Position numbers and translations under genes: made by a program. The notes beneath the pieces were generated by a model that was not told the DNA's origin, ran no database searches, and saw only the letters and a program-made list of their open reading frames with translations. From positions 1 through 64,000 of the forward strand of contig NZ_FZOU01000012.1 in assembly GCF_900188085.1 (NCBI RefSeq): DNA of 64,000 nt. The letters run 5' to 3'. This DNA is from Granulicella rosea (GTDB lineage: Bacteria; Acidobacteriota; Terriglobia; Terriglobales; Acidobacteriaceae). Shown one piece after another: positions 130-57,936 of this stretch. Each line of letters opens with the position of its first letter. Positions within the stretch are counted from its first letter, which is position 1.

Positions 130-1209
130 TCACGCCTCCGAAGGCGCGATCGCGCGGGTCGACTCACGCCGCACAAGCCGCGGCTCGACCAGCTCCTCGT
201 GCGTCAGCTCTTCGCGGCCTTCGATATGCCCCAGCAGGTGCGCGGCGGCCATCGCGCCCAGCTCTTCGAGCGGCTGCATGAACGTGGTGAGCGTCGGGCT
301 GATGTAGCCCGCGCTGGCGATGTCGTCGAAGCCGATCACCGAGATATCCTCCGGCGTGCGCAGACCCTCGTCGCGGATCGCGCGCATGGCGCCGATGGCC
401 GTCACGTCGTTGAAGGTGATCAGGCCGGTGAAGCGCACGCCTTTGCCCAGCAGCTCCTTCGCGCACAGATAGCCCTCCTGCGGCGCCGAGATCTCGGTCG
501 GCGAGTTGCCGGAGTGCAGCTCGCCGATGATGCGTTCGTCGAGCGTCAGCCCGCGTTCGCGCGCGGCGGTCTGGATGCCGCGCCACCGCTCGGTCGCGGC
601 GCGGCGCCAGGGCGGTCCCTTGATGACCGCCAGGCGGCGATGGCCGAGTTCGTACAGGTGTTCGACCGCCATCGCGCCGCCGCGAAAGTTGTCGATCGCG
701 AAGCGCGGCACGCCGTCCACCTTGGCATGGTTGCCGATGGCGATCCAGGGCCGTCCGGGCTGCGCCGGGAAGGTCGTGTTGATCGAAAGAAAGCCCTCCG
801 CCGCGCGTTCGAGAAAGCGCCGCGGATACTCGCGGATCAGCGTCTTGTCGTCGTGATGGCTGGCCGTGAAGTAGAGATACTTCTCCTTCGTCAGCGTGGA
901 ATCGATGCCCGCCAGGATCGTCGCGGCATACAGTTCGCGGATCTCCGGCAGGATGACCGCGATCGTGTAACTCCGCTTCGAGCTGAGATATTTCGCGTAA
1001 AAATCCGGGCGGTAATCGAACTTCGCCGCCGCCTCGATGATCCGCTGGCGAGTCGCCTCCGGAATCAGGCGACCGCGTGGGGTATCATTCATCACGAGCG
1101 AGACCGTGCTCGGCGAAAGCTGCAGATACTGCGCGAGCGTCCTCTGCGTGATCGGCTGGTGCTTGATCGGCTGCACAGGCTCCTGCGTGCTGCCCTTCGT
1201 CGTTGACAA
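130..1209 (-). CDS. LacI-family transcriptional regulator
   Basis: Predicted 359-aa DNA-binding repressor. The N-terminal helix-turn-helix (about residues 22-72, with LAQYLQLSPSTVSLVMN and the hinge region DYRPDFYAKYLSSKRS) is followed by a periplasmic-binding-like effector domain starting at YTIAVILPEI. I chose the TTG start at 1209 because GGGGGGAGG sits 4 bases before it; the ATG at 1263 would overlap the divergent transporter. The gene is transcribed away from an MFS transporter 35 bp off, an arrangement typical of a local sugar regulator. A likely target is the perfect palindrome AGTCAACCGGTTGACT at 2747-2762 in front of the first glycan locus, but that link is inference from proximity and operator class. 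Confidence 0.9.
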   Translation of the reverse strand: MSTTKGSTQEPVQPIKHQPITQRTLAQYLQLSPSTVSLVMNDTPRGRLIPEATRQRIIEAAAKFDYRPDFYAKYLSSKRSYTIAVILPEIRELYAATILAGIDSTLTKEKYLYFTASHHDDKTLIREYPRRFLERAAEGFLSINTTFPAQPGRPWIAIGNHAKVDGVPRFAIDNFRGGAMAVEHLYELGHRRLAVIKGPPWRRAATERWRGIQTAARERGLTLDERIIGELHSGNSPTEISAPQEGYLCAKELLGKGVRFTGLITFNDVTAIGAMRAIRDEGLRTPEDISVIGFDDIASAGYISPTLTTFMQPLEELGAMAAAHLLGHIEGREELTHEELVEPRLVRRESTRAIAPSEA

Positions 1210-1244
1210 GATGCCTCCCCCCACACGCTCGCTGACAAGACTCG

Positions 1245-2471
1245 ATGACCTACAAAGAAGCATATACGGCGCGGGGGTCTGAAGTCGCTGGACCCGACGG
1301 CGTCCGGATCGGCAGGATCGTCGCGCAGAGCACGGCGCTGGTCTTTCTCGGCTATCTCGGCACGGGGCTGGAGGCGGCGGTCGTGCCCAGCTTCGTCCAC
1401 CGCGAGCTCGGCCTGAGCACCACGCTGGCCGGCGCCGCGCTCGGCGCGCAGGCCCTGGCGACGCTCGTCAACCGCGCCTTCGCCGGCCGTGTCACCGACC
1501 GCTTCGGCGCGCGCGCGACCATCGTGCGCGGACTGCTGCTGATGCTGGCCAGCGGCGTGCTCTTCACCGGCGCGGCGGTCTCGCTCGCGCATCCCCTGCT
1601 CGACTTCGCGATCCTGATGCTCAGCCGCCTGATGCTCGGCTGCGCGATCAGTTGGGTCTCGGCCGCCGGCGCGGTCTGGGGCATCGGCCGCGCGGGAGAG
1701 GCCAACGCCTCGCGCGTGCTGGTCTGGAGCGGAGTCGCCGCCAACGCCGCGCTGGCCCTCGGCGCGCCCGCCGGGCTCTGGATCGGCGCGCACTGGAGCG
1801 TCATGACGCTCGGCCCCACCATCGTCGCCCTCTACGCGGCCAGCATCGGCTACGCGCTCACGCTGGCCGAGGTCGAACGCGTCGGCGCCGAACCCCTGCG
1901 CATCTCCGCCGTGCTGCGCCGGGTCGCGCCCTTCGGTTCGATCCTCGCCCTCTGCGCCACGGGATACGGCGTCTTCTCGGCCTTCGTCACGCTCTTCTTC
2001 CAGCAGCAGGGCTGGGCCTCCGCCGCCTGGCCGCTGGGTCTCTACGGCGCGGCGTTCATCGCGACGCGCATCCTGCTCGGCCGCTGGATCGACCGCTACA
2101 GCGTCTTCCAGGTCGGACTCGCCTCGGTCGGGCTCGAACTGGCCGCGCTGGCGCTGCTGGCGGTCTCCCGCTCGGCAGGCTTCGCGCTCGCCTCCGCCTG
2201 CCTGATGGGCATGGGCTTCTCGCTCATCTTCCCCGCCCTCTGCGTGCGTACGATCCAGGCCGTGCAGCCGCGCGACCGCGCCTCGGCGATCAGCGTCTTC
2301 ACCGGCTTTCTGGAGTTCGCCCTCGCGGTCGCGGCCCCGCTGACCGGTCTGCTGATCGCGCGCGAAGGCTACCGCGCGGGCTTCTGGGCGGCGTTCCTGG
2401 CCGTCTGCCTCGGCTTCGCCGGATTGCTGGCCCTCCGGCGAGAGGATTCGCTGAAAAAGGCCCAGGGCTGA
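1245..2471 (+). CDS. MFS transporter
   Basis: 408-aa major facilitator superfamily permease of the inner membrane with about 12 hydrophobic segments. The loop between segments 2 and 3 carries the MFS signature region NRAFAGRVTDRFGARATIVRG, and a second copy of the pattern (RILLGRWIDRYSVFQVG) appears after the midpoint, as expected for the duplicated six-helix fold. It is divergent from the LacI regulator, so it probably carries the inducing sugar or an efflux substrate; the sequence does not tell which. The ATG at 1245 is in a 35-bp divergent gap without a strong ribosome site, so a later start is possible. A hairpin follows at 2517. Confidence 0.85.
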   Translation: MTYKEAYTARGSEVAGPDGVRIGRIVAQSTALVFLGYLGTGLEAAVVPSFVHRELGLSTTLAGAALGAQALATLVNRAFAGRVTDRFGARATIVRGLLLMLASGVLFTGAAVSLAHPLLDFAILMLSRLMLGCAISWVSAAGAVWGIGRAGEANASRVLVWSGVAANAALALGAPAGLWIGAHWSVMTLGPTIVALYAASIGYALTLAEVERVGAEPLRISAVLRRVAPFGSILALCATGYGVFSAFVTLFFQQQGWASAAWPLGLYGAAFIATRILLGRWIDRYSVFQVGLASVGLELAALALLAVSRSAGFALASACLMGMGFSLIFPALCVRTIQAVQPRDRASAISVFTGFLEFALAVAAPLTGLLIAREGYRAGFWAAFLAVCLGFAGLLALRREDSLKKAQG

Positions 2472-2702: not shown

Positions 2703-2762
2703 TTGACAGCGACCCCCGGCGCGAGGCAATGTATGTTGGCTGATCTAGTCAACCGGTTGACT
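2703..2762 (+). promoter_or_regulatory. Promoter with LacI-type operator
   Basis: A consensus -35 box TTGACA at 2703-2708 is followed by a weak -10 candidate (CAATGT, 2727-2732, spacing 18) and then by AGTCAACCGGTTGACT at 2747-2762, a perfect 16-bp palindrome with the central CG typical of LacI-family operators. It lies 75 bp before the lipoprotein gene at 2837 and should control the whole plus-strand locus. The nearest LacI gene ends the same intergenic neighbourhood at 130-1209. Confidence 0.65.
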
Positions 2763-2836
2763 GAAGCGAAAATCAACTTTTCGCACCCCCGGCCACCCAG
2801 ACGGCGCCAATTTCCGCACGCCCCGAAGGACATGCC

Positions 2837-5092
2837 ATGAATCCGCTTCGCCGTTCCCTCCGCACCCCATCCGCACTTCTGGCCGGCGCCTCCGCCCTTG
2901 CCCTCACGCTGCTCAGCGGATGCGGCATCGGCACGCCGAGCACCGGCGCCGCGAGCGCATCCGCCATCCCGCAGGGCTCCAGCAACATGGGCGGCATCCT
3001 GCACGGCGGCCCGAATCCCGTCGCCGGAGCCACCATCACCCTCTACACCACGACCAGCGCCGGCTATGGCGCGACAGCCACCTCCGTCGCCACCACCACC
3101 ACCGGCAGCGACGGCTCCTTCAACCTCACCCTCCCCACCTCCACCATCGCCTGTCCCACCGGCGAGTACGCGTACATCACCGCCGCCGGCGGCACGACCG
3201 GCTCCTCCGCCGTCAACAACGCCTCGCTCATGATGGCGCCCATCGGCCTCTGCGATGCGAACTACACCTCCACCGGCGCCGCCGGAGCCTACGCGAACGT
3301 CTACACGGGCTCCCCCATCTGGCTCGACGAGCTTACGACCGCCGTCTCCGCCTACGCGCTCGGCAACTTCATGACCGTGACCAACGCGGGCGTCGTCAAC
3401 ATCGGCGCGCCGGCCAACAACCACGGCAAAGCCTCCGCCTCCACACCCGCCGCCGCGGGTCTCGCGCACGCCTTCCAGAACGCGCTGAACATCGTCAACA
3501 TCCACACCGGCCAGCCCTACGGCAACCTCGGCGGCAGCCTCAACACCACCGCTGGCATCATCCCGGCGGACGAGATCTTTCTCCTCGGCAACATCCTGCA
3601 GGCCTGCGTGAACAGCGCCGGCAACACCGCCGCCAGCACCGCCACCAGCAACGACGGCAACGCCTGCGGACAGCTCTTCAGCTTCACCGTACCGCCGCTC
3701 TCGGGCGCGGCCGTGCCGGTCAACACCATGCAGGCCATGCTCGATCTCGCGAAGTATCCCGCGCCCGCGCTGAACACCTGGAACACCGCCTGCACCGCCG
3801 CCGGCGGCGGAACCACCACCGCCACCAGCTGCCTCTTCAACCTCGCCACCGGCATCGGTTCGTATCCGAACTCGCTGACCGCGGCGCCGGTCGACTGGAG
3901 CCTCGCCATCGTCTTCCCCGCGGGCACGGGCAAGAACACCACCTCCACCGCGCCGGTCTGCACGGGCACGGGAACCTCCTCCTGCCCCGGCCTCACCTAT
4001 CCCGCATACGTCGCGCTCGACTACGCCGACAACGTCTACGTGTTGAACTGGACCGGTTCGACCACCACCCAGACCAACATCGTCGGCCTCGGCTTCGACG
4101 GCACGCCCATCTTCGCCTCGCCCGCCGATACGACCGACATTCTCATCAAGACCATCGCCACCGACACCGCCGGCCACGTTATCGCCGCCAACAACGACGC
4201 GAACGCCAACACCGCCACCGACGTCGTGAAGGTCTACAGCGCGACGACCGGCGCGACGCTCGCCACGCTGACCACCTCCAACGGTCTCGGCTCGATGCCG
4301 CAGTCGATCATCGCCGATCCGCTCAACAACCTCTACATCGCCTCCAGCCTCACGGCGATCAACATTCGCAAGGCGACCTACGGAGGCACCTCGGCGGCGC
4401 CCACCTACGCGGTCGCCTCGCTCACCACCACCGCGCCGACGGGCGGCGTCCTGCAGCTTGGCTGGGACTCGAAGCTGGACCTGTACCTCGAGACCAGCAC
4501 GCCGAACGCCTACCTGCTGCCGAACACCGGCACCTTCGCCGCGCCCACCTACGCGGCGAACGGCATCACCGCCTCGAGCGGCGGCGTCACCGGCTCGACC
4601 GGCAGCAACTACGGCATTGCGGTTGCAAGCACCGGCAATGCCTACACCGTCACCTCCGCCGGGCTGACGCCGATCACCAAGACAGTCGGTTCGTCGACCA
4701 CGATCGCGTCGGGCTCGCCCATCCCCCTGCCGTACATCCTCACCAGCGGCGGAACCACCGGCCCCTTCGACCGCTACGCGTCGATGGACGGTCTCAACGA
4801 GGTCGTGACGCCGGACGGCGCCAACGGCACCGCTCCCTCGGGCGTGGTCATCTACGACACGGTCAACAACATCTCGCTCGGCATTCTGAGGGGTTGCTAC
4901 GTCATCAGCCGGGCCTGCGGAACCACCTCCGCCGGACAGGTCCCGATGTACTCCGCCCGTTCGGCGGCGATCGACTCCGCCGGCGACGTCTGGGTAGCCT
5001 CGGGCGCAAGCGCGACGTTGACCGAGCTGATCGGCGCCGCCGCGCCCACATGGCCCGGCCTGTCGATGGCCCTCTCCGGCCGTCCCCAGTAA
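2837..5092 (+). CDS. NHL/beta-propeller-like surface lipoprotein, first gene of glycan locus 1
   Basis: 751-aa exported protein of unknown function. The signal sequence ends in the lipobox LLSGC, so it should be lipid-anchored. A short transthyretin/Ig-like domain follows (GGILHGGPNPVAGATITLY, about residues 50-110), then a middle region with NILQACVNSAG and QAMLDLAKYP, then blade-like repeats (YPAYVALDYADNVYVLN and similar) like those of NHL propellers. It is clearly homologous to the lipoprotein at 57937-60195, which shares the HGG..V.GAT start and the CVNSAG segment; both sit upstream of a TonB receptor. I infer a surface glycan-capture role analogous in position to SusD, without sequence proof. 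GAAGGA 7 bases upstream supports the start. Confidence 0.75.
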   Translation: MNPLRRSLRTPSALLAGASALALTLLSGCGIGTPSTGAASASAIPQGSSNMGGILHGGPNPVAGATITLYTTTSAGYGATATSVATTTTGSDGSFNLTLPTSTIACPTGEYAYITAAGGTTGSSAVNNASLMMAPIGLCDANYTSTGAAGAYANVYTGSPIWLDELTTAVSAYALGNFMTVTNAGVVNIGAPANNHGKASASTPAAAGLAHAFQNALNIVNIHTGQPYGNLGGSLNTTAGIIPADEIFLLGNILQACVNSAGNTAASTATSNDGNACGQLFSFTVPPLSGAAVPVNTMQAMLDLAKYPAPALNTWNTACTAAGGGTTTATSCLFNLATGIGSYPNSLTAAPVDWSLAIVFPAGTGKNTTSTAPVCTGTGTSSCPGLTYPAYVALDYADNVYVLNWTGSTTTQTNIVGLGFDGTPIFASPADTTDILIKTIATDTAGHVIAANNDANANTATDVVKVYSATTGATLATLTTSNGLGSMPQSIIADPLNNLYIASSLTAINIRKATYGGTSAAPTYAVASLTTTAPTGGVLQLGWDSKLDLYLETSTPNAYLLPNTGTFAAPTYAANGITASSGGVTGSTGSNYGIAVASTGNAYTVTSAGLTPITKTVGSSTTIASGSPIPLPYILTSGGTTGPFDRYASMDGLNEVVTPDGANGTAPSGVVIYDTVNNISLGILRGCYVISRACGTTSAGQVPMYSARSAAIDSAGDVWVASGASATLTELIGAAAPTWPGLSMALSGRPQ

Positions 5093-5112
5093 CGCAGTCA
5101 TTCTTTCTCCAG

Positions 5113-5135
5113 GCCGGCAGGCACGTCCTGCCGGC
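5113..5135 (+). terminator. Hairpin between lipoprotein and GH79-like genes
   Basis: Perfect 9-bp arms GCCGGCAGG and CCTGCCGGC with a 5-base loop, 20 bases after the lipoprotein stop. No T-run follows. It may lower read-through into the glycosidase gene or protect the upstream message 3' end. Confidence 0.6.
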
Positions 5136-5180
5136 GCCCTTTCCCCCTCACTGTGCGCCCACCGCGCTGAAGGACTCCCC

Positions 5181-6629
5181 ATGCTCGATCGCCGTAAATT
5201 TGTATCGTCTGCCGCACTTGCCTCAGCTTCCACGTTGCTTGCGCCCCGGCTCTTCGCCCAGGGTCAGGCCACGCCTCCGAGCTTCGTCGTTCATCCCGAG
5301 ACGCTGTTCCAGATTCCCGCCGACTTCACCGGCCTCAGCTACGAGTCCTCGCAGCTCACCCACCCCAGCTTCTTCAGCGCGAAGAATACCCCGCTCGTCG
5401 GCCTCTTCCGCACCCTCGGCGAGACCGGCGTCCTGCGCATCGGCGGCAACCTCAGCGAGTTCACCACCTGGTCGAACACCGACCCCGACGTGGCGGACGA
5501 CGGCGGCGTCGAAGGCCCCGACCCCGGCATCCGCGACGCGCATCGCTTCATCATCTCGCCGCGCTCGATCGAGAACCTCAACCAGTTCCTGCTCGCGACC
5601 AACTGGAAGCTGATCTACGGACTGAACCTCGCGGGCGGCACGGCGGAGGCCGCGGCGGACGAGGCCGCCTGCGTCATGCGCATCTGCGGGCCGCGCGTCG
5701 TCGCGCTCCAGTTCGGCAACGAGCCCGACCTCTTCAAGCACAACGGCGACCCCAAGGACCACTGGACCTACGCCGAGTTCATCGCCAGATGGAACGACTT
5801 CCAAAAGGCCGTTCATGCGAAGGTTCCAAACGCGCCGCTCGCCGGACCCGACACCTCGTTCAAGCCCGAGTGGGTCGGCAACTTCGCCGCCGACACCAAG
5901 GGCCGCACCTGCCTGCTGACCGCGCACTACTACGCCGAGGGCCCGCCGACCAACCCCGACATGACCCTCGACCGCCTGCTGACCGACAAGACCAAGTTCG
6001 ACGCGAACATCCAGAAGGCCGCCGCGCTGGCCCAGAAGGCCGGCATGCCCTATCGCATGTCCGAGGGCAATAGCTGCTACAACGCCGGCAAGAAGGGCGT
6101 CAGCGACACCTTCGGCTCGGCGCTCTGGGCCGGCGACTTCTCCGCCAAGGTGGCGGCCGTGGGCGCGACCGGCATCAACCTGCACGGCGGCGGCAACGGC
6201 TTCTACACGCCCATCGCCGGATCGCCGAAGGACGGCTTCGTCGCCCGGCCGGACTTCTACGGCATGCTGATCGCCAGGCCGCTGCAGGGCGCGAAGATGC
6301 TCGCCGCCGACCTCGACGCACAGGGCCAGAACCTGACCGCCTACGCGGTCGAACAGCACGGCAAGGTCACCGTCCTCGCCTTCAACAAATCCGACCGGCC
6401 CGCGACGATCGAGATCGCCCTGCCCGCGACCTACACCGGCAGGGACGCCCACATCCTGCGCCTGACCGCGCCCTCCGTCGAGGCGACCGGCGGCGTAACG
6501 CTCGGCGGCGCCGCGGTCGACAAGGACGGCAAGTGGACGCCGAAGTCGAAGGAAACCATCGCACGCCAGAACGGCAAGCTGCTGCTGCCCCTGCCGGCGT
6601 ATAGTGCGGCGTCAGTACATTTCGCGTAG
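5181..6629 (+). CDS. Glycoside hydrolase, GH79-like (beta-glucuronidase/heparanase type)
   Basis: 482-aa exported (beta/alpha)8 hydrolase. The start MLDRRKF followed by a hydrophobic stretch and AQG looks like a twin-arginine signal. Family clues are LRIGGNLSEFTTW near residue 85-97 and QFGNEPD with the likely acid/base Glu181. The likely nucleophile is Glu295 in YRMSEGNS, and HGGGNGFYTP comes in the last barrel strands, before a beta-sandwich from about residue 400 (VTVLAFNKSDRPATIEIALP). Known GH79 enzymes remove glucuronic acid or 4-O-methylglucuronic acid from glycans and proteoglycans. Preceded by AAGGA 7 bases upstream and followed by a TonB receptor gene, so it probably works on the imported glycan. 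Family assignment is by motif only. Confidence 0.75.
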   Translation: MLDRRKFVSSAALASASTLLAPRLFAQGQATPPSFVVHPETLFQIPADFTGLSYESSQLTHPSFFSAKNTPLVGLFRTLGETGVLRIGGNLSEFTTWSNTDPDVADDGGVEGPDPGIRDAHRFIISPRSIENLNQFLLATNWKLIYGLNLAGGTAEAAADEAACVMRICGPRVVALQFGNEPDLFKHNGDPKDHWTYAEFIARWNDFQKAVHAKVPNAPLAGPDTSFKPEWVGNFAADTKGRTCLLTAHYYAEGPPTNPDMTLDRLLTDKTKFDANIQKAAALAQKAGMPYRMSEGNSCYNAGKKGVSDTFGSALWAGDFSAKVAAVGATGINLHGGGNGFYTPIAGSPKDGFVARPDFYGMLIARPLQGAKMLAADLDAQGQNLTAYAVEQHGKVTVLAFNKSDRPATIEIALPATYTGRDAHILRLTAPSVEATGGVTLGGAAVDKDGKWTPKSKETIARQNGKLLLPLPAYSAASVHFA

Positions 6630-6640
6630 AACCTTCGTTT

Positions 6641-6726
6641 GTCATTCCCGCAGGGAATCTGCTTCTGTCGTTGCACTTGTCGTTGTCCGTTCTTGTCTGT
6701 CATTCCCGCAGGGAATCTGCTTCTGC
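6641..6726 (+). repeat. Two direct copies of a CATTCCCGCAGGGAATCTGC element
   Basis: The 28-bp unit beginning TGTCATTCCCGCAGGGAAT occurs at 6641-6668 and again, identical, at 6699-6726, 58 bp apart. Each contains the small palindrome ATTCCCGCAGGGAAT. The layout (GTCAT, palindrome, TCTGCTTCTG tail) parallels the GTCATCCTGAGCG element found in other gaps of this window, so it looks like a sister family. It lies in the leader of the TonB receptor gene. Confidence 0.75.
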
Positions 6727-6765
6727 TTTTCGTTTCAAGTCTTCGCCGCATCTCAAGAGGTCTTC

Positions 6766-9700
6766 ATGCAGTCTTACACCCAACATCGCCGCTCGTTCTC
6801 GCAAGCCCTACGCGCTCTGTCGCTGTGCGTGGCGCTCGCGTCTCCCGCAATGCTTCACGCCCAGGCGCAGAACACCGGCGCCGTGGCGGGCAGCGTCTTC
6901 GACAGCGCGCACAACCTCATCGTCGGCGCAGCCGTCACGCTGACCTCCGAGGATCGCGGCAACGTCTACAAGATCGCCAGCAGCGCGCAGGGCGAGTACA
7001 CCTTCAACGACGTGCCCGTCGGCACGTACACGCTTGAGGTCACCGCGCCCGGCTTCTCGACCTTCGTCTCGCACCACGTCGTCATCGACTCCGACACGCG
7101 CCTGCGCATCGATTCGACGCTTGCGACCGGCGCCGTCGACACCCAGGTCGTGGTCAGCGCGGATCAGGCGGCGGTCGATACCCAGAGCGCGACCGTCGGC
7201 CAGGTCATCGACAACGAGCTGGTCGAGAACCTGCCCATCGACGGCAACAACGTCGTCGCGCTGGCCGCCCTGCTGCCCGGCGTCACCGACGTCAGCGCCC
7301 CCACCACCTTCACCGACGAGAACGGCGGCGCGACCTTCTCCGCCAACGGCGCGCGCGGCAACTCCAACCTCTTCCTCTTCGACGGCCTGCTCTGGAACAA
7401 CCTCTATCTCAACACCGGGATCAACTACCCCAACCACGCCGCGCTCAACCAGGTGAGCGTGCAGTTGAACAACTACTCCGCGCAGTATGGGCGCAGCGCC
7501 GGCAGCATCTTCAACGTGGTCTCGAAGTCCGGCGGCAACACGACCCACGGCGAGATCTTCTTCCACTATCACGACGCCACCCTGACCGACGCCACCAACT
7601 ACTTCACCCACAACGTCACCCCGCAGCAGACCGCGCAGTATGGCGGCGCGGTCAACGGCGCCATCTTCCGCGACAAGCTCTTCTACGCCGCCGAGTTCCA
7701 GGGACTGACCGGCTACAGCGGCGTCACCGCCAACGCCGAGACGCTCTCCGCCGCCGAGGAAGGTCTCAACCCCGACGGCACGCCCTACATGTGCACCAAC
7801 CCCGCGCTCGCCGGCAAGCAGTGCGCCAGCTTCGCCGCCGACGCGCAACCCGGCGTCTCCTCCTCGAAGCTCATCATCAACCCCATCGGCGCATCGCCGA
7901 TTCCGGCCTCCTTCGGCGTCAACATCGCCGTCGCCAAGTCGCAGATTCAGTCCACCTGGAACGCTCTCGGCAACAGCTCCACCAGCCCCTGCATCAACAC
8001 GCTCACCACCCTCGGCGCGGGCTTCCTCGTCAACGCGGAGATCCCCGCCGAGTGCTTCGACCCCACCGTGCAGGCCATCATCCACAAGGGCTACATCCCC
8101 GCGCCGACCGTCTACCTCGGCGGCTCGCAGCTTCCCTACTCCAGCCCCGCCGCCACCCGGCCGCAGCGCGAGTACGGCGGCTTCCTCCGCCTCGATTACA
8201 ACATCACGCCGCGCCAGACCCTCGCCGCGCGCTTCTACCGCACCGAAAACTCCGACTCCACCGCCAACGGCGGCGGCGACGCCAACGTCGGCGTGCCCAC
8301 CTACGAGGTCGACTACAACCGCGCCTTCATCACCGCCGGTTCGCTCAGCCACACCTTCATCCTCACCCAGAACCTCGTCAACGTCGCCACCATCGGTTAC
8401 AAGCGTTACGACTACGGCGTCGTGCCCTCGGATAACACCACGCTCGCCACGCTCGGCTCGCAGTTCCAGTACCCCGGCTACCAGTCGCTGCCGACCATCT
8501 CCGTCAGCACGCGCTTCACCCTCGGCAACTCCTCCGACGCCTTCACCCGCTCCATCGGCGAGAACGAAGAGCTGGTCGACAACCTCTCGCTCGCCAAGGG
8601 CCGCCACAACTTTCAGTTCGGCGTGGACTATCTGCGCGAGCAGTATCTGAACGTCCGGACCAACGTCGGCAGCTTCAGCTTCCTCGGCAATCCCGGCTTC
8701 ACCGATGCGCAGGCCTCGGACTTCATCATGGGACTCGTCTACCAGGAGAGCTTCGGCAACACCCAGCGCATCTCCGCCAGGCAGAACGCCGTCTACGCCT
8801 ACGCGCAGGATCAGTGGCGCGCGACCGCCAGGATGAACGTGACCTATGGCGTCCGCTACGAGCTGCCGCAGCCCTGGTACCAGCCCGACGGACAGGCCGC
8901 GACCTTCGTACGCGGCTACCAGTCCATCGTCATCCCCAACGCACCCGCCGGCCTCGCCTTCGTCGGCGACCCCGGCATTCCGAAGTCGCTCATCAAGCCC
9001 GACTACAGCAACATCTCGCCGCGCATCGGCATCTCCTACGACCTCTTCGGCAACGGCAAGACCGCCATCCGCGCCGGCTTCGGCACCTTCTACGACGCCA
9101 TCCCCGCGACCATCGTCGGCTTGACCCAGCCCTATACCTATCGCGCCAACTACACCCTGCCCGCCGGCAGCCTCACCAATCCGCTGCTCGGCTTCCCGTC
9201 CATCCCGCAGAACTTCACCGGCAAGGGCACGGCGCAGTTCACCCAGCCCTACTCGGTCATCGCCCCCGACTCCAACTTCCGCAACTCCTACACCCTGGCG
9301 GTCAACCTCGGCTTCCAGCAGCGCATCACCAGCGGAAGCATATTGGAGATGAACTACATCGGCCGCTTCTCGCGCCACCAGCTCATCGCCGTCGACCAGA
9401 ACCCCGCCATCGTCGACTGCTCGGGCGCCTACTTCCAGGCCAACCCGACGCTCTACTGCGGCTCCTTCGTCGCGCAGGGAAACCCCGCTTCGAACTACGC
9501 AGGCCGCGTGAAGTATCTCGGTTACAACTACGGCGGCGGCGGCATCGTCGATCTCGAATCCGCCGCCACCGCCAACTACAACGCGCTCCAGATCACCTAC
9601 CGTCAGCGCGCCTTCAGGAACCTGACCCTGCTCGGCAACTACACCTACTCCCGCGCGATCGACGAGCAAAGCTCGCTCAGCACCTCCAGCTCCGTCTCCG

Positions 9701-10311
9701 AGCCGCAGAACATCGCCATCAACTACGGCGTCTCCGATCAGAACGCGACGCAGATCTTCAACATGGGCTGGCGCCTCGGCCTCGGAAAATTCCGCAACGC
9801 CAACAGCCTCGTCAAGAACGTCTTCAACGACTGGGCCTTCAACGGCATCTACAACGCACGCACCGGCCACCCGGTCAACGTCACCTTCGGCGGCGACGAG
9901 CTGGGCACCGACGAGCCCGGCCAGCGCGCCTACCTCATCCCCGGCATGAACCCCTTCCTGCCTTCGAACCGCCATCGCACCCAGAAGATCGCGCAGTGGT
10001 TCAACTCCGCGGCCTTCCAGAAGCCGGCGCCCTTCACCGCGACCAACATCGGCCGCAACTTCATCATCGGCCCGGCCTACATCAACACGCAGTTCTCGCT
10101 GACCAAGGAGCTTCGCTTCCACAAGCTCGGCGAAAGCACACGCGCCCAGTTCCGCGCCGAAGCCTTCAACGTCTTCAACACCGTCAACCTCGGCCAGCCC
10201 CGCGCCAACTACAGCGCCAGCCTCGCCCAGTCGCTCACCTTCGGCTCGATCAACTCGGTCGGCACGAACGGCAACCGCCGCATTCAGTTCGGCGTCATCA
10301 TCTACTTCTAA
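6766..10311 (+). CDS. TonB-dependent receptor, Oar-like, with N-terminal carboxypeptidase-regulatory-like domain
   Basis: 1181-aa outer-membrane receptor, predicted to import a glycan fragment with TonB energy. A signal peptide ending at MLHAQAQ is followed by a transthyretin-like domain (GAVAGSVFDSAHNLIVGAAVTL to about residue 110). The plug follows (ENLPIDGNNVVALAALLPGV, then SAQYGRSAGSIFNVVSKSGGN), then a long barrel with many alternating strands ending in RIQFGVIIYF, the terminal Phe typical of outer-membrane barrels. The ATG at 6766 was chosen because AAGAGG precedes it and the signal peptide starts there; the frame is open further upstream through the repeats. It is flanked by glycosidase genes, with no SusD homologue. 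Substrate is unknown. Confidence 0.9.
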   Translation: MQSYTQHRRSFSQALRALSLCVALASPAMLHAQAQNTGAVAGSVFDSAHNLIVGAAVTLTSEDRGNVYKIASSAQGEYTFNDVPVGTYTLEVTAPGFSTFVSHHVVIDSDTRLRIDSTLATGAVDTQVVVSADQAAVDTQSATVGQVIDNELVENLPIDGNNVVALAALLPGVTDVSAPTTFTDENGGATFSANGARGNSNLFLFDGLLWNNLYLNTGINYPNHAALNQVSVQLNNYSAQYGRSAGSIFNVVSKSGGNTTHGEIFFHYHDATLTDATNYFTHNVTPQQTAQYGGAVNGAIFRDKLFYAAEFQGLTGYSGVTANAETLSAAEEGLNPDGTPYMCTNPALAGKQCASFAADAQPGVSSSKLIINPIGASPIPASFGVNIAVAKSQIQSTWNALGNSSTSPCINTLTTLGAGFLVNAEIPAECFDPTVQAIIHKGYIPAPTVYLGGSQLPYSSPAATRPQREYGGFLRLDYNITPRQTLAARFYRTENSDSTANGGGDANVGVPTYEVDYNRAFITAGSLSHTFILTQNLVNVATIGYKRYDYGVVPSDNTTLATLGSQFQYPGYQSLPTISVSTRFTLGNSSDAFTRSIGENEELVDNLSLAKGRHNFQFGVDYLREQYLNVRTNVGSFSFLGNPGFTDAQASDFIMGLVYQESFGNTQRISARQNAVYAYAQDQWRATARMNVTYGVRYELPQPWYQPDGQAATFVRGYQSIVIPNAPAGLAFVGDPGIPKSLIKPDYSNISPRIGISYDLFGNGKTAIRAGFGTFYDAIPATIVGLTQPYTYRANYTLPAGSLTNPLLGFPSIPQNFTGKGTAQFTQPYSVIAPDSNFRNSYTLAVNLGFQQRITSGSILEMNYIGRFSRHQLIAVDQNPAIVDCSGAYFQANPTLYCGSFVAQGNPASNYAGRVKYLGYNYGGGGIVDLESAATANYNALQITYRQRAFRNLTLLGNYTYSRAIDEQSSLSTSSSVSEPQNIAINYGVSDQNATQIFNMGWRLGLGKFRNANSLVKNVFNDWAFNGIYNARTGHPVNVTFGGDELGTDEPGQRAYLIPGMNPFLPSNRHRTQKIAQWFNSAAFQKPAPFTATNIGRNFIIGPAYINTQFSLTKELRFHKLGESTRAQFRAEAFNVFNTVNLGQPRANYSASLAQSLTFGSINSVGTNGNRRIQFGVIIYF

Positions 10312-10444: not shown

Positions 10445-13400
10445 ATGCCGACCATCCCGCCCCGCCGCAGCTTCCACCAACACGCCGTCCGTATCGCCCT
10501 TGCCCTCGCGGCTCTCGCCGCACCGCTGGTCCGCGCGCAGTCCGTGCCCGTGCCCTTTGCCGGCACGCTCGCCGGCGGCGGCACGGTCTGCTCGGCCAGC
10601 CTGCCCGTCTTCGCCGTCAACGGCAACGGCGCGAAGTACGGCGACGGCTGCCCCGCCACGCAGGCCACGCTGAACGTGCCCGTCGCCGCCGCGTCCGACT
10701 CGCTCGGCAACGTCTTCATCGCCGACCAGACCTACCAGCTCGTGCGCGTGGTCTACAACGGAGGCGCCGCCCTCGCCGCCGCCATCACCGCGTCCAACGT
10801 GCAGAACGCCGGACTCGTGCCCGTGAAGGGCAACATCTACACCATCGCCGGCGGCATCGTCGCCACGCCCACCGAGACGACCAAGTACTGCAATCAGGCC
10901 GCCTCCGGCACGATCGGACTCGACACCGAACTCGACGGCTGCCCCGGCTCCGAGTCCGAACAAGGCCCGCGCGGACTCGCCACCGACGCCGACGGCAACC
11001 TCTTCATCGCCAGCGTCTCCCCCGTCTCGCAGATCCGCGTCTTCTACGTCGGCGGCGCCGCCGCGGCCAGGCTCATCACCACCGAGAACCCCACCGTCAC
11101 CACGCCGCAGCCCGGCTACGTCTACAACATCGCCGGCGGCAACGCCTCGTCCTACACGCTCGACGGTTCATTGGCCGTCAAGGCCACGATGAACACGCCG
11201 CGCGGCATCGCCATCGACGCCTCCGAAAACATCTACTTCGCCGACCAGCTCAACAACGTCGTCCGCCGCGTCGACGGCACGACCGGCATCATCACCACCG
11301 TCGCCGGACACTGCGTCGTCAGCAGCACAAGCTGCACCGCCACCGCCACCTCGGGCGACGGCTCCCCGGCCGCCAGCACCGCCGTCAACATCTACTCGCC
11401 CTACGGCGTCGCGCTCGACCAATACGGCAACCTCTTCATCGCCGAGGCCGGTTCGGCCTCGCTCGCCGGACGCATCCGCGTCGTCTACGCCGGCGGCACG
11501 CTGCCCGGCCTTGCCTCGCCCACCGTCGGCGACATCTACACCTACGCCGGCGGCGGCACAGGCTCCACGCCCGCCCTGCAGGCTGTCTTTCAGGAGGTCT
11601 TCGGCGTCACCGTCGACCCCTCCGGCTACCTCTACGTCACCGACTACCGCAGCGGCTCCACCGGCTCGAACCATCTCTGGAAGGTCGACCCCACCAACGG
11701 CAACATCGCCATCATCGCAGGCTCAGGCGGCGCCGCCCTCACCGCCGGCGCGCACTGCAACGGCGGAACCACTGGCCCCACCGCGTCCAACACCAAGGGC
11801 GACGGCTGCCCCGCCACCCAGGCCTTCCTGCAGAACCCGCAGGAGCAGCTCGCCTTCGACCCGCACGGCAACTTCTACATCGCCGACCGCGTGAACAACG
11901 TCGTCCGCTCCTTCACCTACAACAACACCTTCCCCGCCACCCCCACCGGCACAAGCATCACCCAGCAGCTCGCCTTCCTCTATCCCATCTCGACCCCCAC
12001 CACCGAGACCTTCGTCACCGAGGGCGCCGCCTCGCCCGACTACGCCGACGGCGGCAGCTCCACCTGCTCCCTCGGCACGCCACTGACCACCGCCGCAACC
12101 TGCGTCGTCAACGTGACGTTCAAGCCCTCGCAGGCCGGCCAGCGCTCCGGCGCCATCACCGTCACGGGCGCTGCCGGAACCGTCGCTGTCGAAGCCCTCA
12201 CCGGCGTCGGCACATCCCCGGTCCTCACCATCGCGCCGCCCGCATCGACCACGCTCGGCTCGGCCATCCAGCCGCTCGGCGTCTCGACCGATGAGGCGGG
12301 CAACGTCTACGTCTCGAACGGCAAGGCCGGCCAGGTGCTCAAGACCACCATCGCCGGCGGCGCCGGAACCGCCGTACTCACCGGCCTCGGCAGCCCGCGC
12401 CAGTCCACCACCGACAACTTCGGCAATCTCTACGTCGCCGACGCGACCAACAACAAGATCGCCGAGCTCACCGCCGCCGGCGCGACCGCCAGCCTCGGCA
12501 CGGGACTTAGCGCGCCCCAGGGCGTCGTCGCCGACCTCTACGGCAACCTCTACGTCGCCGACACCGGCAACAACCGCCTGCTCTACCTCTCGCCCGCCAC
12601 CGGCAGCCAGCGCGTCGTGCCCGTCTCCGGCTTCACCCTCAGCGGGCCCACCTGCCTCGCGCTCGACGCCTCCGGCGACCTCTACATCGTCGACACCAAC
12701 GGCACGCGCCTGATCGAGGTCCCCGTCGGCAGCGCGCCCGTCGCCATCACCCTGCCCACCGGCGCCACGCCCTCGGCCGTCGCCGCCGACCCAGGCGGCA
12801 ACCTCTACCTTGCCGACACTACCAGCAAGAGCATCCTCTTCGTCCCCGCCGGAACCTCCACCGCGACCACCTTCGCCAGCGGCTTCACCACGCCCGTCGC
12901 CCTGGCCGTCGGCTCGAACGGCAACGTCTTCGTCGCCGACTCGTCCGCGACCAGCGCCACCGGCTATAACGCAGCGCTGAACGCCAGCACCTTCACCACC
13001 ACGAACATCTCGCTCACCAGCCTGCCCATCACGTTGACCCTCACCAACGCAGGCAACACCGCCGCCGCGCTCGGCACGCCCGCCTTCACCGAGACCGGCT
13101 CCGCCGCGGCCTTCCCCACCTCGGGCTCTGCAACCTGCACCGCCGGCGGCGCCCTCGCGACCGGCGCCAACTGCACCCAGACCTTCGTCTTCAAACCCAC
13201 CGTACCCGGCGCACAGACCGCGCAGGTCGTCTTCACCCCCACCGCCGGCCAGCCCGTCACCGCGAACCTCAGCGGCACGGCGACCAACCTCATCCTCACC
13301 AGCCTGACCCTGACCCCCGCCAACAGCACTGTCAGCTACGGCCAGCCCGTCACCTACACCGCCACCCTCACCGCCACCAACGCAGGCAGCTCCACGCCAA

Positions 13401-14665
13401 CCGGAACCATCTCCTTCGTCGTCGACGGCGCCACCGTTTCGACCGTCAACGTGACGGCCACGCCCTACACCTACAAGCTGAACGCCGCCGCCGGAACCCA
13501 CTCCGTCGCGGTCGTCTATAGCGGCGATGCGGCCTTCGCGGGCAGCAACACCACCACGCTCGTCACCGTCAACAAGGCGTCCACCACCACCACCGTCACC
13601 TTCGCGCAGAACGCCAGCGGCGTCGCCCTGACCGCCATCGTCACCCCCACGACCACCGGTCCCAGCGCCTTCACCGGTTACGTCACCTTCAGCGTCGACG
13701 GCGTGGCCGGCTCGCAGATCGCCGTCGGCACAGGCACGGTCACCACCACGCAGGTGCTCTCCGACGGAACCCACACCTACAGCGCCAGCTACACCGGCGA
13801 TGCGAACTACGCCGCCAGCAGCAGCGCCACGCAGAGCGTCACCGTCGCGCGAGCGGCCACCGCCCTCACCCTCGCCATCACCCCCGTCTCGAACGCCGGA
13901 GTCGGCGGCCTGCAGCTCACCGCAACCCTCACCTCCGCCGCCGCCGGCACGCCCACCGGAACCATCACCTTCACCAACGGCGCGGCCACCGTCGGCACGG
14001 TGAACCTCTCGACCGCCGTCAAGGGCGTCGTCACCTTCACCACCACCTCGACCACCTACACCAACTACACGTTCACGGCGGCCTACTCGGGCGACGGACT
14101 CTTCAGCTCCTCCTCGGCCACCGCCACCGAGGGCGCGGACTTCGTCGCCGTCGCCCCGGCCGCCGGCCTCGCCGTACCGCAGGGCGCGCAGGCCGTCCTC
14201 GCGATCGCCATCACGCCCATCAACGGCTACTCCGGCACGCTGACCGCGACCTGCTCGAACCTGCCCACCAACACCATCTGCCGCTTCCAGCCGCTGCCCC
14301 TGACCGTCGCCGCCGGCGTCGCCTCCACCTCGTCGGTCCAGGTCTTCGCCGGCGTCAACCCCAGCGTAGCCAGCCTCGAACCGGCGCACCCGGACACGCG
14401 ACGCACCTGGCTCGCGCTGCTCCTCTTCGCCCCGCTGGGCTGCTGCTTCACCCGCACCGGACGCCGCCGCCTGCCGCAGCTCTTCGCCCTGATCGCAGCC
14501 GCGTTCGTGCTGACCGCGCTCTCCGGCTGCGGCAACAAGACCCCAGCCAACAGCCCCACCACCTACCTCGCGCCCGTGGGCACGACGACCTTCACCGTGA
14601 CCTACACCGATACGAACAACCTCGTGCGCTCCGTGGCCGTCCCGCTCACCATCACCCAGCAGTAA
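10445..14665 (+). CDS. Large secreted protein with NHL repeats and Ig-like domains
   Basis: 1406-aa exported protein of unknown function. After a signal peptide (ALAAPLVRAQS) come NHL-type propeller repeats (for example GVALDQYGNLFIAEAG, QLAFDPHGNFYIADRVNNVVR) to about residue 510. An Ig-like/choice-of-anchor segment (TFKPSQAGQRSGAITVTG) follows, then a second propeller (GVVADLYGNLYVADTGNNR) to about 840. Several bacterial Ig-like (Big_3 type) domains come next, with GTISFVVDGA and VVYSGDAAFAGS, to about 1240. The C-terminus has a hydrophobic stretch and then LTALSGC with Cys1362, a lipobox-like motif placed near the end of the chain rather than the start. It may be a surface adhesin or glycan-binding scaffold. 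It sits between the TonB receptor and two glycosidase genes. Confidence 0.75.
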   Translation: MPTIPPRRSFHQHAVRIALALAALAAPLVRAQSVPVPFAGTLAGGGTVCSASLPVFAVNGNGAKYGDGCPATQATLNVPVAAASDSLGNVFIADQTYQLVRVVYNGGAALAAAITASNVQNAGLVPVKGNIYTIAGGIVATPTETTKYCNQAASGTIGLDTELDGCPGSESEQGPRGLATDADGNLFIASVSPVSQIRVFYVGGAAAARLITTENPTVTTPQPGYVYNIAGGNASSYTLDGSLAVKATMNTPRGIAIDASENIYFADQLNNVVRRVDGTTGIITTVAGHCVVSSTSCTATATSGDGSPAASTAVNIYSPYGVALDQYGNLFIAEAGSASLAGRIRVVYAGGTLPGLASPTVGDIYTYAGGGTGSTPALQAVFQEVFGVTVDPSGYLYVTDYRSGSTGSNHLWKVDPTNGNIAIIAGSGGAALTAGAHCNGGTTGPTASNTKGDGCPATQAFLQNPQEQLAFDPHGNFYIADRVNNVVRSFTYNNTFPATPTGTSITQQLAFLYPISTPTTETFVTEGAASPDYADGGSSTCSLGTPLTTAATCVVNVTFKPSQAGQRSGAITVTGAAGTVAVEALTGVGTSPVLTIAPPASTTLGSAIQPLGVSTDEAGNVYVSNGKAGQVLKTTIAGGAGTAVLTGLGSPRQSTTDNFGNLYVADATNNKIAELTAAGATASLGTGLSAPQGVVADLYGNLYVADTGNNRLLYLSPATGSQRVVPVSGFTLSGPTCLALDASGDLYIVDTNGTRLIEVPVGSAPVAITLPTGATPSAVAADPGGNLYLADTTSKSILFVPAGTSTATTFASGFTTPVALAVGSNGNVFVADSSATSATGYNAALNASTFTTTNISLTSLPITLTLTNAGNTAAALGTPAFTETGSAAAFPTSGSATCTAGGALATGANCTQTFVFKPTVPGAQTAQVVFTPTAGQPVTANLSGTATNLILTSLTLTPANSTVSYGQPVTYTATLTATNAGSSTPTGTISFVVDGATVSTVNVTATPYTYKLNAAAGTHSVAVVYSGDAAFAGSNTTTLVTVNKASTTTTVTFAQNASGVALTAIVTPTTTGPSAFTGYVTFSVDGVAGSQIAVGTGTVTTTQVLSDGTHTYSASYTGDANYAASSSATQSVTVARAATALTLAITPVSNAGVGGLQLTATLTSAAAGTPTGTITFTNGAATVGTVNLSTAVKGVVTFTTTSTTYTNYTFTAAYSGDGLFSSSSATATEGADFVAVAPAAGLAVPQGAQAVLAIAITPINGYSGTLTATCSNLPTNTICRFQPLPLTVAAGVASTSSVQVFAGVNPSVASLEPAHPDTRRTWLALLLFAPLGCCFTRTGRRRLPQLFALIAAAFVLTALSGCGNKTPANSPTTYLAPVGTTTFTVTYTDTNNLVRSVAVPLTITQQ

Positions 14666-41158: not shown

Positions 41159-41163
41159 TCCGC

Positions 41164-41596: not shown

Positions 41597-41724
41597 AAGA
41601 TTGCCGCTTAAACCTAGCGATGACAGCCACTTAGCCATCGCTTAAGGTCTTAAGATGTTTCACTGTTTTGTCCGGTTAGAGGAAGATTACAGACATTACA
41701 CACCTCCGCGGGGAGAGTCACGGT

Positions 41725-52966: not shown

Positions 52967-55468
52967 CTAGAACGACCGGACAAACGCCGGCGGCGCCGGA
53001 GCCGCAGCCTGTACGGTGGTGGTTGCCGTCGCCAGTCCTGGGGATGAGGCGGTGACGGTGATGGCGCCGGGGCCGGTGGCGCGGAGGATGGCGACGGCGC
53101 GGCCTTCGTAGGCGTGGCGGTCGGGTTTCTGGAAGGAGTCGTGGTCGGCGTTGCTGCCGCTGTCGACGGCGACGATGGCGCCGGGGCCGGTGACGGCGAA
53201 GTGGATGAGGTTGGTCGCGTCGGGGACCATGGTTCCGGCGTCGTCGGCGACCTCTGCATATATATAGATGACACCGGAGTCATCGGCGGTGGTTTTGGCG
53301 TGCTCGGCCGTCAGATGCAGTTTGGTCGCCTTGCCCGCCGTGAGCAGCTCGTCGGTGGCGACGCCCTTGCCGCCGACGTAGCCGACGACCTTCAGCGAGC
53401 CGGGTGCGTAGGGAACCTTCCAGCTCAACGGCGTGGCGTCTGGGTGCAGCTTCTGTCTGCCGAGGGACTTGCCGTTCAGGAAGAGCTCGGCCTCCTCGCA
53501 GTTCGTGTAGCCCTCGACGGTTTCGACGTGGTCGCCGGGTTTTTCGGGCGTCCAGTCGAGGAAGAGCGACTGCTTGAAGCGGGCGGGCGCTGTCTCGTAG
53601 CCGGGGTCGACGCTGGTGCGCTCGGTGGGGGCGACGCGGCGTGCGATGTGGACGTTCGGGGTCGTGCCCCACCAGCTTTCGCGTTCGAAGGCGCGGGCGC
53701 GGGGGTAGCCGGTGCGGTCGAGCAGGCCGGAGCCGTTGCCGATCAGCGGCCAGCCGCCGGCCTCGCCCGCCTCACCCAGATAGTCGATGCCGGTCCAGAG
53801 AAACTGGCCGGAGTAGGGCGGGTTGTCGCGCAGGGCGATCCATTGGTTGCGGTCGTGGGTGTTCTCCGTGCCGAGGATCTTGCGGGTGGGCTTCTGCGCG
53901 TGCGCGGCGAGGATCTCCTGCTCGCGGTAGTTCTGGCCGACGACGTCGAGCAGGTCGGCGAGGCCGTTGTCATAGTCGTGGCTGGCGTTGGGCCGGAAGA
54001 GGCCCTGCGTGACCGGGCGGCTGGGATCGTTCTCGTGGAAGACCTGTACCAACGATGTGAGGATTTTATTGGCGAGCGCCGCCTGCGGGGTGTCGTGGAT
54101 CTCGTTGCCCGCGCTCCACAGGATGATGCTGGGGTGGTTGCGGTCGCGGCGGACGGTGTCGCGCGTGTCGCGCAGCGCCCACTGCTGGAAGAAGAGGTGG
54201 TAGTCGAAGGGGTTCTTGCCGACGGTCCACTGATCGAACATCTCGTCCATCACGAGCAGGCCGAGCTTGTCGCAGAGGTCGAGGAAGTCGGGCGAGGGCG
54301 GATTGTGCGCGGTGCGGATGGCGTTGACGCCCAGGGCCTTGAGCGCCAGCAGACGATGCTCGTAGACCCCGGCCGGGACGGCGATGCCGACGCCGCCGGC
54401 CTCGATGTGCATGGCCGCGCCCTTCAGCTTGAAGTTTTTGCCGTTGAGCCAGAAGCCGGTCGCGGCGTCGAAGTGGAACTCGCGGATGCCGAAGGGAACC
54501 TCGTCCGTATCGGCCGCCGCCGCGCCCGTGCGGACGGAGGCGGTGGCGGTGTACATCGCCGGGTGGTCGAGATCCCAGATGGCGGGGTTGGCAACGGGGA
54601 TGTCGCGTCCGATGGTGACCATGCCCTTGGCGGGGATGTCGCGCGGCGCGCCCCAGTCGCCGGGAATCTTACCGGCTGGCCCGGCGAGGGCGAAGCTGAC
54701 CTGCACCTTCGTGGCGGGCTTGTCGCTGTCGTTCACGATGGTGGTTTCGACGTGAACGGTCGCGCTTGCGGGCGAGATCTTCGGCGTGGTGACGACGGTG
54801 CTCCACGGCTCGATGTGCAGGTCGCCGGTGACGACCAGGCGGACGTGCCGGTAGATACCCGCGCCCTCGTACCAGCGGGAGGCGGGCTGCTGCGCGTTGT
54901 CGCAGCGCACGGCAAGGATGTTGTGCGCGCCGGCGCCGAACTGCAGGTGGCCGGTCAGCTCGTAGAAGAAGCTGACGGTTCCGTTCGGGCGCTTGCCCAG
55001 GTGCGCGCCGTTGATCCATACGTCGGAGTTGGCCATGACGCCGTCGAAGACGACGTAGACGTGCTTGTGGGCGTCGGCCTCGGTGAGCGCGATGTCCTTG
55101 CGATACCAGCCTACGCCGTTGGGGAAGTATCCGCCGCCCTGGCCGGTGGTGTTGGCCTTGTCGACCGGTCCGGCGATGCTCCAGTCGTGCGGCGCGTCGA
55201 CGGTCTTCCATCCGCTGTCGTTGAAGTCGGGCGCCTCGGCCTTTTTTGCGTCCTCGGCGAGGAACTTCCACTGCGCATCGAGCGAGCGCACCTGCCGCGC
55301 GGAATTTTGCGCGGTTGCCGACAGCGCGCAGGCGAACAGGAGGCCCGCGACGAAGCTGCTGACAGGAAAGCGCTTACGCAAAGGCAGCGAGAGGAAGGGC
55401 AGGGAAGTGGGCAAGCGAGGTCTCCAGAGGCGGGGATTCGTGGCGCCGGGGCGCACGCCGACGATCAT
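52967..55468 (-). CDS. GH2 beta-galactosidase-like enzyme
   Basis: 833-aa exported glycosidase. The signal-like segment FVAGLLFACALSATAQ follows about 38 residues from the chosen start. GH2 order: jelly roll (WKTVDAPHDWSIAGPVDK, GGYFPNGVGWYRKDI), Ig-like domain, then a barrel with NAIRTAHNPPSPDFLDLCDKLGLLVMDEMFDQW, acid/base Glu456 in WSAGNEIHD and nucleophile Glu535 in GTENTHDRN. Two further beta-sandwich domains close the chain. Likely removes galactose side chains from rhamnogalacturonan I, by context. No good ribosome site precedes 55468, so the true start may be a later ATG or GTG before the signal peptide. Confidence 0.88.
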   Translation of the reverse strand: MIVGVRPGATNPRLWRPRLPTSLPFLSLPLRKRFPVSSFVAGLLFACALSATAQNSARQVRSLDAQWKFLAEDAKKAEAPDFNDSGWKTVDAPHDWSIAGPVDKANTTGQGGGYFPNGVGWYRKDIALTEADAHKHVYVVFDGVMANSDVWINGAHLGKRPNGTVSFFYELTGHLQFGAGAHNILAVRCDNAQQPASRWYEGAGIYRHVRLVVTGDLHIEPWSTVVTTPKISPASATVHVETTIVNDSDKPATKVQVSFALAGPAGKIPGDWGAPRDIPAKGMVTIGRDIPVANPAIWDLDHPAMYTATASVRTGAAAADTDEVPFGIREFHFDAATGFWLNGKNFKLKGAAMHIEAGGVGIAVPAGVYEHRLLALKALGVNAIRTAHNPPSPDFLDLCDKLGLLVMDEMFDQWTVGKNPFDYHLFFQQWALRDTRDTVRRDRNHPSIILWSAGNEIHDTPQAALANKILTSLVQVFHENDPSRPVTQGLFRPNASHDYDNGLADLLDVVGQNYREQEILAAHAQKPTRKILGTENTHDRNQWIALRDNPPYSGQFLWTGIDYLGEAGEAGGWPLIGNGSGLLDRTGYPRARAFERESWWGTTPNVHIARRVAPTERTSVDPGYETAPARFKQSLFLDWTPEKPGDHVETVEGYTNCEEAELFLNGKSLGRQKLHPDATPLSWKVPYAPGSLKVVGYVGGKGVATDELLTAGKATKLHLTAEHAKTTADDSGVIYIYAEVADDAGTMVPDATNLIHFAVTGPGAIVAVDSGSNADHDSFQKPDRHAYEGRAVAILRATGPGAITVTASSPGLATATTTVQAAAPAPPAFVRSF

Positions 55469-57502: not shown

Positions 57503-57936
57503 TCTTACTTTGGTCGGACTGGCGCGTATTTTTCGGGGAAAACGGCGTGTCGACTCCATCTCGGCATGCCGTTGCAAGTGGTTCATAAATTGAGACTTGC
57601 CTTGGATTTCGAAGATTCTGCCAATACGAGAACAATTTTTCAGTTGACACCCTGTGTGCGGAGTGGGTACTTTGTCACCTGCCAATGACAAGCCTGTTTC
57701 AAGGTTCTGAAGTTCCGACTGGGAAACGTTTTCAAAGTAGCTCATCCCCGTCTCCTTCAGCCCCGTAACCGGCCCCATGCGGCACACATTTGAAGAGATA
57801 TCGCCCAGAAAACTGTATCTCGTTTGACCCGATGAGCACGCAGCAAGGAACTATCCGAGAAGGCCGGCAGCCCCGTCAGAGCTGACCCGCCCCGCAAGCA
57901 GCCGATCGATACCGTCGCACCAATTTGGAGACCAGC
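57503..57936 (+). other. 434-bp leader region of the second lipoprotein/receptor locus
   Basis: No gene is seen. It is AT-richer than its surroundings, contains the promoter and operator given in the next entry, and ends with GGAG six bases before the lipoprotein ATG. The 165 bases between the operator and the ribosome site hold no repeat or hairpin that I can recognise. Confidence 0.6.
57644..57733 (+). promoter_or_regulatory. Sigma-70-type promoter with LacI-type operator
   Basis: TTGACA at 57644-57649 and TACTTT at 57668-57673, spacing 18, form a good promoter. GGAAACGTTTTC at 57722-57733 (within TGGGAAACGTTTTCAAA) is a LacI-type palindrome with one mismatch, about 45 bases downstream of the probable start. 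The order TTGACA box then operator repeats that at 2703-2762, before the homologous lipoprotein gene. Confidence 0.65.

Follow-up and report, generated by a model that had tools for sequence, protein, structure and literature searches.

Acidobacteria are dominant soil bacteria, and one of the closest described counterparts of the loci treated here is the SusC/SusD system of Bacteroidota, in which SusD has an α-helical fold. A second counterpart is BtuG of Bacteroides, a 7-bladed propeller lipoprotein that caps the TonB receptor BtuB, its propeller following the lipid anchor via a linker (PMC10404256); lipoprotein-capped transporters have been called apparently exclusive to Bacteroidetes (PMC10404256). 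Here, we analyze a 64,000-nucleotide stretch of Granulicella rosea DNA (hereafter the window; contig NZ_FZOU01000012.1, positions 1 to 64,000), which contains two loci with a lipoprotein gene and a gene for an Oar-type TonB-dependent receptor (TBDR). A preliminary description of the window had proposed that the lipoprotein, built around an NHL propeller, could be the SusD-like, glycan-catching partner of the receptor in this lineage. Our analysis shows that the two lipoproteins belong to a family that is not a general SusD stand-in and, unlike SusD, is not tied to a receptor as its obligatory partner, and that one branch of this family forms a conserved gene pair with exosortase J (XrtJ).

The HGG-domain lipoproteins and their two window loci

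Lipoprotein 1 (2837..5092, + strand; lipobox LLSGC, no Pfam match) and lipoprotein 2 (57925..60195, + strand; lipobox LTGC) are members of what we term the HGG-domain lipoprotein family. Their homology, as first proposed, holds for the N-terminal third, where BLAST aligns ~270–300 aa (36% over 304 columns, E 5e-26), but the C-terminal propellers cannot be aligned pairwise. An alignment of the N-terminal domain comprises 229 profile positions with four invariant or near-invariant cysteines and the motifs HGGQQP and NEVTTVA. The domain has a transthyretin/CarboxypepD_reg-like beginning followed by a helical second part, and the family architecture thus consists of a lipobox, a transthyretin/carboxypeptidase-regulatory-like β-sandwich, a cysteine-containing helical domain and, usually, an NHL propeller. 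The AlphaFold model of mature lipoprotein 2 (pTM 0.86) shows the same succession of β-sandwich, helices and propeller. Among 104 members (35 from the G. rosea genome and 69 from other genomes), 84 carry a lipobox at most 80 aa from the domain.

The propeller-like repeats noted previously proved to be NHL-type by Pfam, structure model and sequence match; the propeller of lipoprotein 2 matches NHL proteins by sequence, and its fold matches many generic propellers, among them fucose- and rhamnose-binding lectins of Photorhabdus. While the C-terminal repeats of the family match NHL and related models, as do NHL/Vgb/SMP-30 propeller proteins, the conserved N-terminal lipoprotein domain sets it apart: this domain has no model of its own in Pfam or NCBIfam and no convincing relative among solved structures. 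No near-invariant histidine, glutamate, lysine or arginine was found in the propeller part across members, which gives no hint of a catalytic site common to the family. A catalytic propeller of the Vgb lyase or SMP-30 lactonase kind is accordingly disfavored, given the lack of a near-invariant histidine or glutamate. We conclude that the HGG-domain lipoproteins constitute an undescribed modular family of presumed surface lipoproteins that is heavily multiplied in this genome.

The G. rosea genome contains 35 copies of the N-terminal domain, which include many lineage-specific branches in the tree. Members turned up in 35 of 250 sampled genomes of the class, nearly all of them from the genus or family of G. 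rosea. Carrying genomes other than G. rosea gave 1 to 9 matches each; these counts are lower bounds, as at most 11 candidates were scored per genome. A smaller, complete search of relatives found 0–10 copies per genome. Two same-genus genomes of the 250-genome sample, and one smaller genome in the complete search, have no family member. Named public relatives come almost exclusively from Acidobacteriaceae (Granulicella, Acidobacterium), along with one metagenome-assembled genome labeled Rhodanobacteraceae. A search of genome contigs with lipoprotein 2 alone returned no relative, and none of the plasmid records encodes this protein. In one G. rosea copy (L057:4786-6117; G000:C11:1014785-1016116), the reading frame breaks off at a TAG codon behind the N-terminal domain, and the propeller continues in the next open reading frame; this copy is possibly a recent pseudogene.

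Both lipoprotein genes, with lipoboxes, and both Oar-type receptors were found at the places first outlined. Locus 1 begins with a LacI-family regulator (130..1263, − strand; Peripla_BP_3 1e-33, LacI 5e-6) and a major facilitator superfamily transporter (1245..2471, + strand; MFS_1 4e-31), followed by lipoprotein 1, a GH79-like secreted glycoside hydrolase (5181..6629, + strand; Glyco_hydro_79C 1e-6, 79n 5e-5), the Oar-type TBDR 1 (6763..10311, + strand; PF25183 OMP_b-brl_4 3e-150, CarboxypepD_reg and Plug) and, directly after it, a giant protein with Pfam NHL and Big_3_5 domains (10445..14665, + strand). Locus 2 comprises, on the opposite strand, a GH2 enzyme (52967..55468, − strand; Pfam GH2 domains), then a PL4-type rhamnogalacturonan lyase (55526..57502, + strand; PF14683 2e-30, PF14686 and PF06045), lipoprotein 2, the Oar-type TBDR 2 (60407..63901, + strand; PF25183 OMP_b-brl_4 6e-157, CarboxypepD_reg and Plug) and a giant NHL/Ig protein just beyond the window end (C4:64019-68395). 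The GH79-like gene between lipoprotein 1 and its receptor, as well as the NHL/Ig giant after each receptor, had been overlooked in the preliminary description.

Thus, both lipoproteins are located in glycan catabolic loci. In the G. rosea genome, at least 11 of the 35 members have a carbohydrate-active enzyme (CAZyme) gene as immediate neighbor, from GH28, PL4, pectate-lyase fold, alginate lyase, GH3, GH42, GH92, GH29 and GH79 families, whereas in a control of 35 random genes the first 25 of the 45 families included neither a GH nor a PL (Fisher P 0.005). A PL4 rhamnogalacturonan lyase gene adjoins lipoprotein 2 as well as the family member nearest to it (C7:346455). These two observations lead us to favor, tentatively and at somewhat less than even confidence, a reading in which modular surface lipoproteins, exosortase-linked in one branch, have been recruited here as accessory glycan-binding proteins. 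The N-terminal module common to the family would place the lipoprotein at the outer surface, with the divergent propeller serving as its ligand-binding head. Duplicated copies would have been recruited into catabolic loci in this lineage, where they would act much as SGBPs (surface glycan-binding proteins) do, holding polysaccharide close both to the TonB receptor and to secreted CAZymes: probably the GH79 substrate in locus 1 and rhamnogalacturonan in locus 2. The likeness to SGBPs of polysaccharide utilisation loci lies in a lipoprotein lacking an enzymatic signature within a catabolic locus of lyases and hydrolases; the phylum and the architecture differ, and glycan binding by the present proteins is putative.

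Several points weigh against accessory glycan binding. Surface exposure of the lipoproteins is an assumption, contacts with partners are presumed, and the fold-level matches of the propeller lack specificity. Numerous members have genes of a housekeeping kind next to them (MutS-like, ribose-5-phosphate isomerase, cytochrome-like) that offer no glycan context, and the main carbohydrate neighbor in relatives is a convergent α-galactosidase beside the exosortase branch. The CAZyme control is small, at 35 genes, and the CAZyme scan left out neighbors that were short or already identified as TBDR or exosortase, although these were counted in the denominator of 63.

Receptor pairing and the SusD and BtuG comparisons

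Gene neighborhoods were called around all 104 members with a simple gene caller that reproduced the known window genes but may set starts wrongly and overlook genes in foreign genomes, so that neighbor counts there are approximate. A TBDR is the immediate neighbor of 5 of 35 members in the G. rosea genome and of 4 of 69 in other genomes, and lies within three genes of 11/35 and 13/69, respectively. By chance, an adjacent TBDR is expected for about 1.0 of the 35 (59 TBDRs among ~3900 genes) and about 2.1 of the 69. The excess in G. rosea is therefore real but modest (P about 0.004), and that in other genomes is not significant (P about 0.16). Viewed from the receptor side, 5 of the 59 TBDRs adjoin a family lipoprotein, and relatives have about 50 TBDRs against 0–10 family lipoproteins. 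One same-genus genome (G003) encodes at least 54 TBDRs and no family member; a further genome (G001) encodes at least 55 TBDRs and two family members, neither adjacent to a listed TBDR.

These neighbor counts, those taken from the receptor side, and the genomes G003 and G001 exclude a general SusD-like pairing, and a lineage-wide replacement of SusD by the NHL lipoprotein is rejected. The conserved neighborhood anticipated in the preliminary description is found in part: most members have no adjacent TBDR, but there is the excess in the G. rosea genome, one pair kept in four genomes (see below) and the CAZyme adjacency described above. A search of the whole genome for SusD/RagB (PF07980) gave no match, with a positive Bacteroides control, and a Pfam scan of lipoproteins 1 and 2 found no SusD domain. 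The resemblance to SusC/SusD is thus confined to a lipoprotein gene beside a CarboxypepD_reg-bearing TBDR in a CAZyme locus and to the lipobox of both window copies. It ends with the missing SusD_RagB homolog, the irregular receptor pairing and the propeller, as opposed to the α-helical SusD fold. The simplest account of acidobacterial glycan capture, in which a lipoprotein lid would serve universally, thereby falls away; the genomes examined each encode some 50 TonB receptors or more.

In one ortholog group, the lipoprotein–TBDR pair persists across two genera, in four genomes, with TBDRs 75–77% identical. The complete order of a secreted LTD-domain (or LTD-like) protein, lipoprotein, TBDR and phospholipase C is present in the G. 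rosea genome (C13), in G038 and, in another genus, in G136 (L068:5359-16254, L074:133-9755 and L119:6020-15730); in G217, a TBDR of 77% identity lies directly downstream of a family lipoprotein, which supports this LTD-type setting. Because phospholipase C stands beside the conserved pair, the clearest conserved lipoprotein–receptor pair points to phosphoesters rather than glycans, and suggests that the LTD-type operon is a phosphoester-scavenging unit. It also marks the one subclade with a conserved, testable lipoprotein–receptor pair.

In another explanation, the propeller lipoprotein of a minority of members is a true lid of the neighboring TonB receptor, as BtuG is on BtuB or SusD on SusC. 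Three direct lipoprotein-to-TBDR pairs together with locus 1 in the G. rosea genome, the adjacency excess there and the pairing retained in four genomes speak for it, as does BtuG itself, a propeller lipoprotein able to cap a TonB receptor (PMC10404256). Nonetheless, an immediate TBDR neighbor is missing for 95 of 104 members, and 54 of the 59 TBDRs have no family lipoprotein beside them. The BtuG propeller follows its lipid anchor via a linker, whereas a folded ~270-aa N-terminal module intervenes here, and lipoprotein capping is regarded as a Bacteroidetes trait (PMC10404256). Like BtuG, the window proteins are lipid-anchored β-propellers encoded near a TBDR (PMC10404256), a likeness known from genes and a monomer model; the receptor, however, is Oar-type, and the family is mostly unlinked to receptors. 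On balance, we consider a lid role unlikely. The narrower proposal that some members, namely those of locus 2 and of the LTD–lipoprotein–TBDR–phospholipase C operon, are propeller lids of Oar-type receptors that evolved independently of SusD and BtuG seems to us quite unlikely; if true, it would overturn the exclusivity of lipoprotein-capped TonB transporters to Bacteroidota.

Exosortase J linkage and the NHL/Ig giants

Exosortase is the commonest neighbor family of members in other genomes. Two copies in G. rosea match the NCBIfam exosortase J model TIGR04199 at 652 and 556 bits (cutoff 200). The 250-genome sample contains 23 xrtJ genes in 21 genomes, and 20 of the 23 have a family member directly downstream on the same strand, with the domain start 141 to 878 bases away. 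The pairing extends to a second family of the class, and the tree puts 10 of its 11 xrtJ-linked copies in one branch, which shows a conserved gene pair between exosortase J and one branch of the lipoprotein family (L046, L047, L070, L081, L095, L100, L102, L104, L107, L112 and L126). Exosortase J is the most strongly conserved neighbor of the family, and the homologs are in this respect largely assigned to a role other than the one first proposed. The recurring order is M1 peptidase, XrtJ, lipoprotein and a convergent α-galactosidase, with the M1 peptidase assigned by sequence resemblance to the Pfam-confirmed G. rosea copy. A literature search found no paper on XrtJ; what emerges is an undescribed lipoprotein family with exosortase J as its conserved partner.

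These data raise the question of whether the family as a whole serves an exosortase J-dependent envelope system for surface polysaccharide or protein sorting, the copies in glycan loci being scattered duplicates for envelope display rather than nutrient capture. Such a role would fit the close, same-strand spacing in 20 of 23 cases across two families of the class, an exosortase identity far above cutoff, its rank as top neighbor in other genomes and the presence of the lipoprotein in every XrtJ genome. However, 14 of 35 lipoprotein-bearing genomes have no XrtJ at the threshold used, 33 of 35 copies in G. rosea, both window lipoproteins included, are not beside xrtJ on the same strand, and the xrtJ-linked lipoproteins end without a recognizable C-terminal sorting helix. 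We judge a family-wide envelope role unlikely, and prefer exosortase linkage of one branch with recruitment of other copies to glycan binding.

The proteins behind the receptors form a second recurring element. For 11 of the 59 TBDRs, including those of both window loci, the gene directly downstream on the same strand encodes a secreted NHL + Big_3_5 protein with a length of ~800–1460 aa. Within G. rosea, receptor plus NHL/Ig giant makes a better recurring unit than lipoprotein plus receptor. It could be argued from this count that the giant is the recurring receptor partner in G. rosea and that the lipoprotein is incidental. Homologous giants in relatives are rarely beside listed TBDRs, however, and the linkage may thus reflect one cassette duplicated in this genome; we regard a partner role of the giant as very improbable. 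A literature search for acidobacterial NHL proteins with a link to TonB receptors found no paper.

In all 12 giants readable to the C-terminus (11 downstream of a TBDR, 1 upstream), a pair of hydrophobic helices interrupts the terminal Ig domain. A lipobox-like motif, in most cases L(S/T)GC, closes the second helix, and the alignment has three invariant cysteines. In the giant of locus 1, this C-terminal Ig domain with its two-helix hairpin ending LSGC spans 14063..14662 (+ strand), as identified by alignment, AlphaFold and Foldseek. AlphaFold gave high confidence for both Ig-domain halves and the two helices between them, and in Foldseek single Ig-like domains of ~105 residues align across the hairpin gap. 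An arginine-rich turn separates the hydrophobic helices. The hairpin is possibly an internal membrane anchor. Split-Ig C-termini also occur in L139, L140, L148, L152, L155, L157, L159, L169, L171, L175 and L178; the module is widespread in the class, is also found in another family of the order and is not tied to XrtJ. The idea that hairpin giants are XrtJ substrates was dropped, as the module is present in the XrtJ-less genomes G003 and G124 and in that other family.

Candidate regulatory sites and probable plasmid context

A TTGACA promoter followed by a LacI-type palindrome had been described for each locus. The hexamers are present as candidate −35 elements at 2703..2708 and 57644..57649 (both + strand), but neither is followed by an acceptable −10 element, and the promoter scan was negative at both loci; TTGACA occurs four times on the + strand across the window. 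Operator 1 (2747..2762) is a perfect 16-bp palindrome, AGTCAACCGGTTGACT, one of three in the window, and is a candidate LacI operator near the LacI gene. Operator 2 (57720..57735) is an imperfect CG-centered palindrome in which 6/8 positions pair; with 51 equal or better CG-centered sites in the window, it stands at chance level and is a weak candidate. An operator shared by both loci was rejected on this ground and because the two palindromes differ in sequence, for which reason they are not sites of one regulator.

The segment 30682-63901 encodes a GH28 enzyme, an SGNH esterase, two PL4-type proteins and two GH2 enzymes. An L-rhamnose isomerase-like gene (44578-45783) and a rhamnose mutarotase-like gene (47595-47942) were recognized in the window by eye only. 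The segment is likely a rhamnogalacturonan I locus.

The contig that contains the window (C4) is 90184 bases long and encodes a ParA-type partition ATPase and a replication initiator protein A (40024-43248), the latter sharing 69% identity with an initiator on an Acidisarcina polymorpha plasmid and 60% with a Granulicella tundricola initiator. Because ParA and a plasmid-like replication initiator lie together on a 90-kb contig, both loci are probably plasmid-borne, and the window probably lies on a plasmid carrying glycan-use loci.

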